Source of the DNA: Arenibacter latericius DSM 15913
GTDB taxonomy: Bacteria; Bacteroidota; Bacteroidia; Flavobacteriales; Flavobacteriaceae
Direction: 5' to 3'
Length of the DNA: 64,000 nucleotides
NCBI RefSeq assembly: GCF_000424985.1
Contig: NZ_AUKX01000011.1
Location: 1-64,000, forward strand
Within the stretch, counting starts at the first letter, position 1, and each line of letters starts with the position of its first letter. Shown here one piece after another: positions 4,927 through 9,256 of this stretch. Under the pieces are notes generated by a model, which did no database searches, was not told the origin of the DNA, and saw only the letters and a program-made list of their open reading frames with translations. Both the position numbers and the translations under genes were made by a program.

Positions 4927-5496
4927 ATGTTGGAAGAACTAGTGAAGTATGACAAAGAGTTGTTTCTCTTCCTCAATCATTTGGGAAACGCTCAATGGGA
5001 TGGTTTTTGGCTATTTATAACAAGTAAGTGGAGCGCTATACCCCTTTATATGTTTTTAGCTTATGTTACTTATAAGACCTTTGGTGTAAAACAATTACTC
5101 CTAGTTTTGGTCAGTATTGCAGTCCTTATATTGGCCACCGACCAGTTAGCTAACTTCTTTAAATACGGAGTAGGTCGTTTACGACCTTGTTACGATTTGG
5201 AAATAGGGGATGCAGTACGTTTGGTAAAGGCTTCTTGCGGTGGGCAATTTGGATATTTTTCCGCCCATGCTGGGAATTCTTTTGCGGTAGCTACTTTCTT
5301 TACCCTTTTGCTAGGATCCAAATACAGAGCTCTAGGGATATTTTTGGTGGTTTGGGCCATGGTAGTCGCCTATAGTAGAATCTATATTGGAGTACATTTT
5401 CCTTTGGATATCCTTACGGGAGCAACTATCGGGTTAGGAATGGCTAGCCTCTTCTATTACTTATTTGAAAGAATTAGGGTAAGGTATAAGCTCTAA
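4927..5496 (+). CDS. PAP2 superfamily membrane phosphatase
   Basis: A 189-aa polytopic protein with the three PAP2 signatures: KxxxxxxRP (Lys79 to Arg86-Pro87), SAHAGNS with His114 in place of the usual PSGH, and SRxxxxxHxxxD (Ser150-Arg151, His157, Asp161). Such enzymes remove phosphate from lipid substrates such as undecaprenyl diphosphate, phosphatidate, or lipid A phosphates on the periplasmic side. The substrate is not decided here. The start is 5 nt after the stop of the small acidic gene, indicating an operon. Convergent with the 5597-9256 operon. Confidence 0.88.
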   Translation: MLEELVKYDKELFLFLNHLGNAQWDGFWLFITSKWSAIPLYMFLAYVTYKTFGVKQLLLVLVSIAVLILATDQLANFFKYGVGRLRPCYDLEIGDAVRLVKASCGGQFGYFSAHAGNSFAVATFFTLLLGSKYRALGIFLVVWAMVVAYSRIYIGVHFPLDILTGATIGLGMASLFYYLFERIRVRYKL

Positions 5497-5596: not shown

Positions 5597-6286
5597 CTAT
5601 TCGTCGCTTTCCTTCTTTTTCTTTTTAAAGATCCACTGATTTAGGGGGCCTAGAAATATTAAGAAAAATATTAGTCCAAAGGCAAACTCGTACACTTCCC
5701 AAGTCCTATCTGCCGGATTAAGGGCTACAAAAACGGTAGCCAATAAAAAGGCGATGGTATGGTGCCATTTCACTATAGGTACAGCAAAGTTATCGGCTAA
5801 ATTTTTAAACCAAGTTTGTTTACGATATAGGATAGGGGATACAATAAGGTAAAGAAACATTACCACAAATAACAATTGGCTAAAAATAAGCTTGTTAATT
5901 TTCTTTTCTCCCACTACTAGGTTGTGTAAGTTGGTTTCGCCCTGGGCGTTATTTTGTAGGAAAAACTCACTAGATTCTACCTCGAAAATGCGTTGTCCCC
6001 AAGAAATTTCTTCTCCAGCTCCAAAAAGGAAGAGAACTACAAAAGCAAAGGTGCCTATTCTCCAAAGTGATTTTTTATAATTCCATAACGAAATTAGGTG
6101 ATACAAAGACAGCATAGATATTCCGAAAAGCATTATAGCAGTAGCCCACTCTACGGTTCCATCTTCTTGGGCAAACTTAGTGTTGAAATACGTTTCATCT
6201 GTTATGCCTAAATAAAGTCCGAATAAAATAATTAGGAGTAAAATAGTGTAAGCTATTTTTTCAAATTTTGTCAAAAGATTCATCAT
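5597..6286 (-). CDS. Polytopic membrane protein with a GAGEEISWGQ motif, function unknown
   Basis: A 229-aa protein with about six hydrophobic segments and a Lys-rich C-terminus. Between helices 3 and 4 it carries a striking polar block, GAGEEISWGQRIFEVE followed by NAQGETNLHNL (roughly residues 90-125). I recognise this block as conserved in membrane proteins of unknown function. Paired glutamates, Gln/Arg and a His next to a membrane look like a catalytic or ligand-binding site; that is inference. Last gene of the four-gene minus-strand operon; its start overlaps the ArnT-like stop by 4 nt, implying translational coupling and a role in the same pathway. Confidence 0.8.
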   Translation of the reverse strand: MMNLLTKFEKIAYTILLLIILFGLYLGITDETYFNTKFAQEDGTVEWATAIMLFGISMLSLYHLISLWNYKKSLWRIGTFAFVVLFLFGAGEEISWGQRIFEVESSEFFLQNNAQGETNLHNLVVGEKKINKLIFSQLLFVVMFLYLIVSPILYRKQTWFKNLADNFAVPIVKWHHTIAFLLATVFVALNPADRTWEVYEFAFGLIFFLIFLGPLNQWIFKKKKKESDE

Positions 6287-7932
6287 TGTTTTTTTACTAT
6301 ATATAAATTGTTTACCAATCTGTCTTTATGTCCCTTGCTATCTGGATCTGCATACGAATTTAAATCGAATTTCCTCTTTAACTCATAAACATATCCAGTA
6401 CCAAAGATACGTTTAAATTCAATTTCATCTACTTGAGCAACAAGTACGCCAAAGGTCTCTTCCTCAGGGATTATAATATTATTTTCTGCTTTTAGGTCTG
6501 GTAGACTGCTTCCAAAATCCCATATCATTTCCGGAGATACCTCTCCAAAGCTATATATTGTAATCCCCTTATCCAACATGTTAGTCTTTAAGTTTGCTAT
6601 GGGATAATACGCTGTGTTTTTTTTGACTCCTCCGGCTAAAGGCATGGCCAATAGCTTTATGGAGGCAATTAACCCGATAGACAATAGGAAGCAATGAAAA
6701 ACTTTCCGTTTTCCAAGAAAAATAAAAGTAAAGATACCTATAGCCATAAGAACTATGGAAGAGATAATATAGTAAACCCAATATCCATCTATGCTATTTA
6801 ATACAAAATAGATAGCTATGGGGAATGCTATACCAATTACCCCCACAATCCCAAAATGTAGGTTGATAGGGAACCTTTCTTTGGCGCTTAATTTTGTTTT
6901 AAAATGAGTGAAAATGTACGAAAAGTAGATCCCTATATTAAGTGCTAATGGAATTAAAACGGGAACGAGGTAGCGCGACTTTTTTTCCGGAATGATGGAA
7001 AGTAACACTACAGCGATAATAGTCCATAAAAAGGTGAGTTTATAAACCTGTTTGTATTTAACACGTTTTATTAGGTAGGGGTAAAATAGACTTACCAAAG
7101 CAGGGATAGTCCACAATCCGCTTTGTACAAAAAAGCTCCAATAATAATAGAAGGGCCTTACGTTATAGCTATGCCAGTTGGAGGTCTCTTTTTTTGTGAT
7201 GGCTAGGAAAGCATCTGGGTCTGCAAACCGTACATAGACAAACCACCATAAGCCTACACCAAGAGCTATTACAATTATTAAGAGCGTTGGAAGAACCTTT
7301 TTACCTTGCCTAAAGCCTTTGTACTTATATACTATGCCGTATGCTAAAAGGAATGGTAACAGGAGCCCGTAGAAGGAAATAGGACCTTTACTCATTATAG
7401 ATAGCCCTATAAAGATACCTGCAAGTATACTATTTCTCCATTGATTGTGCAGTCCATTGAAAAATGGATAAAGAAAATAAATTCCCATTAACATAAAACC
7501 ATGGGTATAGATATCCCAAGGAGCCTCCACGGTGATTCCAATGATATAAAAAGAGGTTAAGAGTACCAAAGCACTTACTAGTGCGTCTAATTTATTGTTC
7601 AGTAGTTTAAGGGATAACTTATAAGCGGTGTAGCCCAATAGAATGGCCATTAACATAGTGGGGAAACGAAGCGCTACAACGTTATTTATTCCAAATATCC
7701 ATCCGAAAATAGCGGTAATCCAACTGGGTAACGGAGGTTTTTCATATCTTGGAAGTTCATTCATAGTCGTTAACAACCAATTCCCATCAATAACCATTTC
7801 CCTCGCAGTAATAAAATTTCTGGCCTCCATAATACTTACAGGGATAACCCCTAAATGAAAAAGGAAAATTGCAGATCCAGTTAAGAGAAGGACTAAAACG
7901 GGATTATTTTTTATCCAATTCATTGTTTTCAT
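6283..7932 (-). CDS. ArnT/PMT-like glycosyltransferase (GT83 type)
   Basis: A 549-aa integral membrane glycosyltransferase with about 12 N-terminal hydrophobic helices and a C-terminal periplasmic part (roughly residues 440-549). The first periplasmic loop has SIMEARNFITAREM with the acidic residue used by GT-C enzymes, followed by RYEKPPLPSW, the typical ArnT/PMT signature. ArnT transfers aminoarabinose from undecaprenyl phosphate to lipid A; here the transferred sugar and acceptor are unknown. The start overlaps the preceding LAB_N gene by 29 nt (an internal ATG at 7923 would overlap by 20). Neighbours GT2 and LAB_N fit a lipid-linked sugar pathway. Confidence 0.88.
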   Translation of the reverse strand: MKTMNWIKNNPVLVLLLTGSAIFLFHLGVIPVSIMEARNFITAREMVIDGNWLLTTMNELPRYEKPPLPSWITAIFGWIFGINNVVALRFPTMLMAILLGYTAYKLSLKLLNNKLDALVSALVLLTSFYIIGITVEAPWDIYTHGFMLMGIYFLYPFFNGLHNQWRNSILAGIFIGLSIMSKGPISFYGLLLPFLLAYGIVYKYKGFRQGKKVLPTLLIIVIALGVGLWWFVYVRFADPDAFLAITKKETSNWHSYNVRPFYYYWSFFVQSGLWTIPALVSLFYPYLIKRVKYKQVYKLTFLWTIIAVVLLSIIPEKKSRYLVPVLIPLALNIGIYFSYIFTHFKTKLSAKERFPINLHFGIVGVIGIAFPIAIYFVLNSIDGYWVYYIISSIVLMAIGIFTFIFLGKRKVFHCFLLSIGLIASIKLLAMPLAGGVKKNTAYYPIANLKTNMLDKGITIYSFGEVSPEMIWDFGSSLPDLKAENNIIIPEEETFGVLVAQVDEIEFKRIFGTGYVYELKRKFDLNSYADPDSKGHKDRLVNNLYIVKKQ

Positions 7933-8542
7933 TTTTTAGGATAAATAAATTTCTTAAATATACGACTAGTCCCAAGCTATGTCCTACAAATAGAACAGGG
8001 TCTCTTCTAAATATCGCATAGGTTAAGATTAGGGAAGCCCCTATTAGACTAAGTAGCCAAAATCCAAATGGAAGACTAGACGCCTTCTTTTTTTCGGAGT
8101 ATAACCATTGATATACAAATCTAAAGGTGAAAATTAGTTGAGCTATACTTCCTAATAACAATAGCCATAGTGGAATATTCTCATTTTTAAAGAGACTATC
8201 TATATCGTAGGCGTTATTGTTATACCCATAAACAGTAATAATTACTGGAAAAACATATAGAAAAATTCTGAGAAATTTGGGTAGTTTATACCATTCACCC
8301 TGCATTTGAATGTTTCTTATATAAATAAAATAAGTAATTGCTTGGCCCAACATTATGGCAAAATCATCACGTAGCCATCCGTAAACGAATAGTAAAAAAG
8401 AGGCTAGGAGGCTAAGTTGCCAAAAAAGCCTTGGCGTAATTACCTTTTTATTTTTTTCAGAAATTATCCATTGGACCAGCATCCTGCTGGAAAAAAGAAT
8501 TTGGGCTAAAAAACCTATCGCATAAACTATCCAATCTGTCAT
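7904..8542 (-). CDS. Duplicated LAB_N-domain membrane protein (lipid A biosynthesis-like)
   Basis: A 212-aa membrane protein built of two copies of the LAB_N domain (named for the N-terminus of some lipid-A-disaccharide synthases). Copy 1 is about residues 1-85 (IGFLAQILFSSRMLVQWI, then SLLASFLLFVYG). Copy 2 is about 120-205 (LGSIAQLIFTFRFVYQWLYSEK, then LSLIGASLILTYAI). The repeated Q-x6-R-x3-QW pattern is clear. There is no glycosyltransferase domain attached. In other bacteria such stand-alone proteins accompany GT2 plus ArnT genes, and a lipid-linked sugar transport or flipping role has been suggested; that is inference. Abuts the GT2 gene with no gap. Confidence 0.85.
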   Translation of the reverse strand: MTDWIVYAIGFLAQILFSSRMLVQWIISEKNKKVITPRLFWQLSLLASFLLFVYGWLRDDFAIMLGQAITYFIYIRNIQMQGEWYKLPKFLRIFLYVFPVIITVYGYNNNAYDIDSLFKNENIPLWLLLLGSIAQLIFTFRFVYQWLYSEKKKASSLPFGFWLLSLIGASLILTYAIFRRDPVLFVGHSLGLVVYLRNLFILKNENNELDKK

Positions 8543-9256
8543 TTACCCAATTTTCTCCACTTGGTAGTTGATATACTTTTTCTTCATCCATAAATAGGCG
8601 AAGCAATCTATTAGCGGGCCAATTAGTCGATTCCATAACCCATATTTTGCTGTTCCTGCCATTCGTGGAAAATGACGTATGGGGACTTGTAATATGGTTC
8701 CTTCTTGCAAAAGTATCATGGCCGGTAAAAATCGGTGTAGACCATTAAACATGGGTATTCTTTTAGCGTAATCTGTTTTTATCACCTTTAAGGGGCAGCC
8801 AGTATCGTCCATACCATCCTTGGTAAAAGTACGTCTAATGCCATTGGCAATTAAAGAAGAAGCATTCTTCACAAAAGAATCTTTTCTGTTCTCCCTAACT
8901 CCTGTGACTAAGTCATAAGGACCTATTTTTTCTAATAGTAGGTTAAAATCTTCAGGGGAGGTTTGTAGATCAGAATCTATATACCCTAACAGAGGAGTAT
9001 CCACATGATCGAACCCAGCTTTAATTGCTGCACTCAATCCCCTGTTTTGTGCAAATTTTAAATATTGAAAATCCGTATTACGATTGCAGATAGCTTCAAT
9101 AATTTCCTGACTTCTGTCCTTGGATCCGTCGTTTACGAAAAGTACTTTTGCCTTTTTAGTGCAGATTGTTAAGTAATCTCCTAGTTCTTTTTCTACACGT
9201 TCCAAATTGTCTTCTTCGTTGTAGACAGGTACTATTATAGTGAATTCATAAGTCAT
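8543..9256 (-). CDS. Family 2 glycosyltransferase (polyprenyl-phosphate sugar synthase type)
   Basis: A 237-aa cytoplasmic GT2 enzyme resembling dolichyl-phosphate mannose synthase and ArnC. It shows FTIIVPVYNEEDNL at the N-terminus (nucleotide binding), NDGSKDRS, and the DSDLQTSPED metal-binding segment. It lacks the two C-terminal membrane helices of ArnC/GtrB proteins, ending shortly after LIDCFAYLWMKKKY. Likely role: load a sugar from a nucleotide donor onto undecaprenyl phosphate for the ArnT-like transferase downstream. First gene of the operon, with a consensus -7 box about 40 nt upstream. Confidence 0.88.
   Translation of the reverse strand: MTYEFTIIVPVYNEEDNLERVEKELGDYLTICTKKAKVLFVNDGSKDRSQEIIEAICNRNTDFQYLKFAQNRGLSAAIKAGFDHVDTPLLGYIDSDLQTSPEDFNLLLEKIGPYDLVTGVRENRKDSFVKNASSLIANGIRRTFTKDGMDDTGCPLKVIKTDYAKRIPMFNGLHRFLPAMILLQEGTILQVPIRHFPRMAGTAKYGLWNRLIGPLIDCFAYLWMKKKYINYQVEKIG

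Follow-up and report, generated by a model that had tools for sequence, protein, structure and literature searches.

A stretch of 64,000 nucleotides (nt) from Arenibacter latericius DSM 15913 (NZ_AUKX01000011.1, positions 1 to 64,000; hereafter the window) carries four tightly packed genes, which raises the question of what path they serve and whether all four belong to it. They encode a glycosyltransferase of family 2 (GT2), a small membrane protein with a double LAB_N (lipid A biosynthesis N-terminal) domain, an ArnT-like glycosyltransferase of the GT-C fold and a membrane protein with the motif EEISWGQ, hereafter the fourth protein. The original prediction, made from the sequence, saw in them a dedicated four-gene system, possibly acting on lipid A. 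Open reading frame (ORF) positions and Pfam matches confirm the four ORFs, their coordinates, their strand and their spacing as that prediction gave them: the GT2 and LAB_N genes abut (0 nt), the LAB_N and GT-C genes overlap by 29 nt, and the GT-C and fourth genes by 4 nt (Table 1). We propose that the first three genes form a three-component periplasmic glycosylation system to which the fourth gene is an optional addition, and we put the probability of this reading at roughly 0.6. Both the four-gene system and the lipid A target are weaker claims than the prediction took them to be.

The GT2 protein has as its best solved relatives ArnC (9hwj, E = 1e-26) and the GtrB-type sll0501 (5eke, E = 6.8e-17), a similarity by which it would qualify as the synthase of a Gtr-type three-component system. 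The GT-C of such a system is present in an adjacent gene, whose product passes the Pfam cut-off for PMT and matches ArnT (5ezm) at E = 1.3e-4 across residues 36–412. Membership of the Arn pathway for 4-amino-4-deoxy-L-arabinose was not supported by the NCBIfam equivalog models, as both scores fall far below their cut-offs (94.4 bits with a cut-off of 529 for ArnC, and 83.5 bits with a cut-off of 567 for ArnT). In the window's genome, LAB_N and Pfam PMT were each matched at this locus alone (PMT_2 was not searched).

The double LAB_N protein is covered by the Pfam LAB_N model in two stretches and also passes MtN3_slv (25.4 bits, cut-off 23.7). Its AlphaFold2 model, with a predicted local distance difference test (pLDDT) score of 87.1, has the helix order 3-1-3, and a Foldseek comparison with the PDB ranks eukaryotic SWEETs first (probability up to 0.98, best E 0.062). 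Searched separately by sequence, each half matches SemiSWEET-type PDB chains (E = 2.8e-4 and 0.0094). By the 3-1-3 fold and by sequence the protein belongs with the SWEET/PQ-loop proteins; the curated SemiSWEET model of NCBIfam is not passed (29.2 bits of the 100 needed). Pfam returned LAB_N and MtN3_slv only, and none of the GtrA, SMR or MATE flippase families. A fusion of LAB_N with LpxB, the lipid-A-disaccharide synthase, was considered and rejected: the protein has 212 amino acids (aa) and aligns to positions 9–219 of the 610 in PRK01021, scoring 94.7 of 1033 bits. Because a SWEET-type protein is here encoded between a synthase and a transferase, the LAB_N protein is best read, from its modelled fold and its gene linkage, as a putative membrane protein that flips or presents the lipid-linked sugar.

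This reading has a partial counterpart in the literature. Passages of PMC3281891 place MPDU1 and the SWEETs in one PQ-loop family, within which the lipid A biosynthesis N-terminal profile is one annotation, and state that all known dolichol-phosphate-monosaccharide reactions require MPDU1, the function of MPDU1 itself being unknown. Passages of PMC11127046 describe three-component systems with GtrA, SMR or MATE proteins as proposed flippases; a term search of that paper returned 0 occurrences of LAB_N and of PQ-loop, and no paper on LAB_N proteins in this glycosylation or carrier role was found in the Creative Commons-licensed literature, judged by title. We read the SWEET-type protein as filling the flippase place, as MPDU1 may in eukaryotes; as a carrier, it is of a type not usually tied to lipid-linked sugar transfer.

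Linkage was evaluated in samples of 120 genomes of the family (Flavobacteriaceae, the window's own genome included), 296 of the phylum (Bacteroidota) and 299 of the Pseudomonadota. The double LAB_N protein occurs in 57/120 family genomes and 18/296 genomes of the phylum sample. From 60 Bacteroidota regions taken around LAB_N places, LAB_N was called in 59, with a GT2 directly before it in 53, a GT-C directly after it in 46 and both in 45. LAB_N was also found in 45/299 Pseudomonadota genomes, with one match per gene (two in G497). When overlaps caused by ORFs called too long are allowed, GT2 stands before LAB_N in 28 of the 30 loci examined there (L242–L270 plus L224), and 15 have a GT-C after LAB_N by a profile that is flavobacterial. 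Since the GT2–LAB_N linkage recurs there, the unit crosses phyla, and a SWEET-like protein tied to a polyprenyl-phosphate-sugar synthase across two phyla would make a compact bacterial test system. The earlier suggestion that GT2, LAB_N and GT-C make up a single path for a lipid-linked sugar, in which LAB_N is the carrier candidate, is thus supported by the SWEET-like fold and sequence and by the GT2 linkage in two phyla. In our view the trio, with its putative SWEET-type carrier, is a good candidate for three-component glycosylation, as a variant of a known system type.

Some LAB_N loci deserve separate mention. Given the GT2 genes before LAB_N in Pseudomonadota, annotators may be misled by the name 'lipid A biosynthesis N-terminal'. 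At L206 and L208, six unidentified same-strand genes of similar size precede LAB_N with no adjacent GT2 or GT-C, possibly a different LAB_N pathway. L046, L051, L052, L058, L061 and L067 (Lutibacter and relatives) carry further GT-C genes, and mostly GT2 genes as well, in the interval from LAB_N to the ArnT-like gene, which looks like a gathering place for sugar transferases.

The same linkage bears on another role for the LAB_N protein, in which it would not be a flippase but would anchor the GT2, which is shorter than ArnC and GtrB, in the membrane or act as its partner, by analogy with DPM2 and DPM3, which serve DPM1. The tighter GT2–LAB_N than LAB_N–GT-C association in Pseudomonadota (28/30 versus 15/30, with the flavobacterial GT-C profile), its presence in two phyla and the length of the GT2 (237 aa, compared with 322–363 aa in three ArnC chains) would all fit such a role, but the SWEET fold is a transporter fold and six of the seven Cellulophaga GT2 loci have the GT2 without LAB_N. 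We therefore consider an anchor decidedly unlikely.

Several observations weigh against the three-component reading itself. The E-values of the SWEET matches in Foldseek are weak (best 0.062). A PAP2 gene replaces the GT-C after GT2 and LAB_N in 3/59 Bacteroidota loci (L200, L205 and L207). Cellulophaga genomes are without a LAB_N match in 17 of 18 cases and without a GT-C match in 14 of 18. Outside Bacteroidota, the contexts of the fourth gene are mixed, with AdoHcyase in Bdellovibrionota, BNR repeat proteins and metal-related plasmid regions.

Among known systems, the Arn pathway (ArnC, ArnEF, ArnT) resembles the locus in that the GT2 is closest to ArnC and the GT-C to ArnT, by solved structures and NCBIfam models; it differs in that both proteins here score below the ArnC and ArnT family cut-offs and that LAB_N stands at the place of ArnEF, a comparison based on the role of ArnEF in that pathway. 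The use of dolichol-phosphate-mannose in eukaryotes by DPM1, MPDU1 and PMT-type enzymes follows a similar logic of GT2, PQ-loop protein and GT-C (MPDU1 being a PQ-loop protein in passages of PMC3281891), whereas the present genes are bacterial, stand in one operon and are likened to it by genes and predicted fold. Decoration of lipid A with galacturonic acid (GalA) by RgtE, RgtD and RgtF likewise combines a bactoprenyl-phosphate-sugar synthase with GalA transferases, according to passages of PMC7663294. Gtr-type systems (GtrA/GtrB/Gtr, and the pentofuranose systems in passages of PMC11127046) also encode a polyprenyl-phosphate-sugar synthase, a carrier candidate and a GT-C together; here, in contrast, the carrier is of the LAB_N/SWEET type, not GtrA, SMR or MATE, and an optional extra gene is present.

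As a mechanism, we suggest that the GT2, judged by its family, would load a monosaccharide onto undecaprenyl phosphate in the cytosol, and that the double LAB_N protein, by its fold and linkage, would flip or present the lipid-phosphate-sugar to the periplasmic side. The ArnT-like GT-C would then move the sugar to an acceptor on lipooligosaccharide, most likely a core phosphate, giving a phosphodiester-linked monosaccharide. The weakest step is that of the EEISWGQ protein, perhaps a membrane enzyme in its own right that faces the periplasm, or else an accessory factor; it is often encoded near GT2 or GT-C genes, may tailor the lipid-linked sugar or the acceptor and would not be required for the path.

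ArnT transfers its sugar onto phosphate. Among the named relatives found, Arenibacter certesii is the nearest, with a fourth protein that is 90% identical (locus L032), and we take the DSM strain of that locus to be the same type strain as KMM 3941T. Passages of PMC4052302 review the lipid A of A. certesii KMM 3941T with canonical phosphorylation at C1 and C4', do not mention an added sugar on it and mention GalA with the figure of the A. certesii core; passages of PMC3210612 report that this core bears monosaccharides through phosphodiester bonds. Because a phosphodiester-linked monosaccharide on the core is the bond that an ArnT-like enzyme would make, a core phosphate, not lipid A, is the predicted acceptor. 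By this analogy we consider the core phosphate of lipooligosaccharide most likely, and lipid A as the target is not supported.

The alternative, as originally predicted, is that four obligate genes form a new lipid A modification system, which places the sugar on a phosphate of lipid A and cannot do without the fourth protein. It would draw on the overlap of the genes in one operon, on ArnT as the closest relative of the GT-C, on the LpxE-like PAP2 gene next door and on the sugars that passages of the respective papers report on Bacteroidota lipid A, namely D-mannose in Cellulophaga (PMC11065906) and GalA in Echinicola (PMC8707317). However, the lipid A of A. certesii is described with ordinary phosphates, that of the flavobacterium Zunongwangia has phosphate or phosphoethanolamine with no extra sugar in the passages seen of PMC9470727, and many trio loci are without the fourth gene, which in turn occurs without the trio. 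We rate this alternative as very improbable. The trio was also considered as the maker of the mannose on Cellulophaga lipid A, which was not supported: in 18 genomes, the LAB_N protein was found in 1, a close GT-C in 1 and a distant GT-C in 3 more, and since LAB_N and GT-C matches are missing from most genomes, the trio seems not to be needed for it. The Cellulophaga genome with the trio (G744) might be of a species with published lipid A.

The fourth gene was predicted to be a dedicated, co-conserved component of the system, which its distribution does not support. At E up to 1e-40, close homologues are present in 12/120 family genomes, the window's own included; with the limit relaxed to 1e-3, a homologue of any kind is present in 25/120 family genomes and 5/296 of the phylum sample. 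Close copies accompany the LAB_N protein in 11 of the 57 family genomes that carry it and are missing from 46, and 14 of the 24 searchable genomes with a member of the fourth family have no LAB_N match. In the window's genome the fourth protein matches itself only (1 match), and one scan confirmed at least 556 stretches of the EEISWGQ family.

Beyond the window's genome, the best 38 loci (L032–L069) were scored for trio partners at E below 1e-20 on the same strand. The fourth gene stands with all three partners in 29, and in six of these LAB_N and the ArnT-like gene are separated by other genes; the four-gene order is thus more than chance. The other nine comprise two cut by contig ends (L057, L063), one with the GT2 only (L038), one with GT2, LAB_N and a distant GT-C (L054) and five with none of the three partners at this threshold (L041, L053, L056, L065 and L068). 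In Cellulophaga, the GT2 was found in 7 of the 18 genomes: one locus is a trio, five have the order GTPase, GT2, fourth gene, PAP2, and one has the GT2 without the fourth gene. These loci indicate that the fourth gene can stay with the GT2 when LAB_N and GT-C are absent, and elsewhere it occurs without any of the three. Its co-conservation therefore holds within part of the Flavobacteriaceae, but does not extend to most LAB_N genomes of the family, and the gene is retained in Cellulophaga, Spongiivirga and Urechidicola at places where some or all of the trio is missing. When fourth-gene presence is mapped as a label onto a LAB_N tree of 88 rows, it changes 7 times and a single clade is rejected (p = 0.013); because at least two labels are wrong (L219 by a gene-calling error and L195 by a contig end, both genomes holding a copy) and the sample mixes in loci chosen for the fourth gene, the tree shows only a patchy distribution. 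The fourth gene is an optional companion, not a fixed part of the trio.

Such a gene could also be a bystander, encoding a membrane enzyme that has nothing to do with the others and that synteny has trapped in the operon, as would be suggested by its mixed contexts outside Bacteroidota and by locus L041, where the trio is lost and the gene still has the same flanking genes. This is countered by the persistence of the link to the trio despite differing surrounding genes (L047, L066 and L069), by the position of the gene beside the GT2 in 5 Cellulophaga genomes without a LAB_N or GT-C match and by the recurrence of GT-C neighbours in other Bacteroidota. The recurrence was evaluated in 41 distant loci from L068–L111 (three were not located), which come from several Bacteroidota groups, are not independent and include one, L069, that carries the trio. 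With a GT-C profile from other loci, a GT-C lies within two genes of the fourth gene in 9/41 loci (12/155 neighbour genes), and 0/334 control genes more than four genes away match; a profile built partly from the same neighbours gives 11/41, L076 and L097 dropping out with the other-loci profile. Among the GT-Cs within three genes of the fourth gene, 15/16 match PMT_2. The fourth gene is thus found beside GT-C genes more often than expected, and we hold the bystander explanation to be unlikely, though it deserves weight.

Other surroundings of the family are more varied. Conjugative Roseovarius plasmids carry EEISWGQ-family genes (L112:8902-9600 and L113:8833-9594) in the vicinity of a cation P-type ATPase and of L,D-transpeptidases; L113 has copper genes as well. 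Genome G072 has three consecutive family genes (L021, L026 and L027) with GT2-like sequences nearby. At L054:7949-9874, a membrane sulfatase-family protein (Pfam Sulfatase), of a sequence cluster also present in L053 and L076, adjoins the EEISWGQ gene and could be a lipid or glycan phosphotransferase.

The EEISWGQ family is the least understood and most novel part of the locus. No Pfam family passes its cut-off for the fourth protein (sole match E 0.056), in which GEEISWGQR forms residues 91–99. The AlphaFold2 model is confident (pLDDT 92.9, predicted template modelling score 0.89), and a Foldseek search of the PDB gave no fold match at E up to 0.001 (best 0.44); the features weighed in relation to a GT-C fold were its six long helices and the acidity of its first outer loop. 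Alignment A2 (64 rows, from 80 loci in a scan aimed at the EEISWGQ and ETNLHN motifs) has 19 invariant columns, 16 of which are E41, D42, E46, E92, E93, S95, W96, R99, N113, Q115, E117, N119, H121, N122, E197 and E200, and the more divergent alignment A1 (22 rows, from 31 loci with ORFs filtered by motif pattern) has 14. This conservation is partly selected by the motifs, with E41, E46, E197 and E200 outside those searched. Relatives left out of the alignments carry EEIAWG (L021, L022, L026 and L027), EEISYG (L025), EERSFG (L024) or the HN motif only (L016); because they vary at S95 and W96, these two are not invariant across the whole family. Charge differs between the two sides of the membrane: few Lys or Arg residues occur in the first outer loop, which is acidic, and the opposite loops are basic. 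From these charges and the positive-inside rule the conserved polar site of acids, His and Arg is predicted to be periplasmic.

Comparison with known families gave no assignment. CAAX/CPBP proteases have a motif of EE followed by R, which is present here, but no such Pfam match was obtained. The Wzy_C O-antigen ligase model matched 6/64 members at E up to 0.05 (best 1.2e-4; best score 22.3 of 31.7 bits), which is a lead only; three matches inspected singly align to differing parts of the profile, and no supporting fold occurs among the 50 of 438 Foldseek matches listed for the fourth protein. Rhodopsins account for many Foldseek rows, but at E 0.44 or worse and template modelling scores up to 0.37, so that a rhodopsin was rejected, and polyubiquitin matches in the profile search were taken as artefacts.

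The tested members pass no Pfam model, and the polar site is strongly conserved. We favour an enzymatic role for the fourth protein, one that may depend on a metal. A bolder and rather doubtful proposal is that EEISWGQ proteins are a new class of periplasm-facing membrane enzymes whose substrates are polyprenyl-phosphate sugars or the acceptors of these, and which can function with a GT2 alone as in the Cellulophaga pair, and that LAB_N is the bacterial counterpart of MPDU1. If this were true, the unsettled role of MPDU1 could be tested in a three-gene bacterial operon.

Table 1 Features of the locus and its convergent neighbour in the window
Feature	Position	Strand	Length	Pfam match
GT2 polyprenyl-phosphate monosaccharide synthase (candidate), ArnC/GtrB-like, DSDLQ motif	8543..9256	-	237 aa	PF00535, 4.1e-26
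Double LAB_N, SWEET/PQ-loop-type membrane protein, helices 3-1-3; putative lipid-phosphate-sugar flippase or presenter	7904..8542	-	212 aa	LAB_N, 8.1e-60
ArnT-like GT-C glycosyltransferase	6283..7932	-	549 aa	PMT, 1.6e-9
Six-helix membrane protein of the EEISWGQ family; optional partner	5597..6286	-	229 aa	None over cut-off
Convergent PAP2 phosphatase, LpxE-like; conserved neighbour, probably outside operon	4927..5496	+		PAP2, 1.9e-23

The PAP2 product has LpxE as its closest solved relative (6ebu, E = 1.3e-7). Its gene is the convergent neighbour in 10/11 of the loci L001–L011 and adjoins trios without the fourth gene too. At many loci of the family the trio is flanked by this convergent gene on one side and by a GTPase gene, presumably of the MeaB type, on the other. 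At positions 54–947 of the window, an ORF of 297 aa resembles what we take to be a transposase of the ISXO2/IS1595 type.

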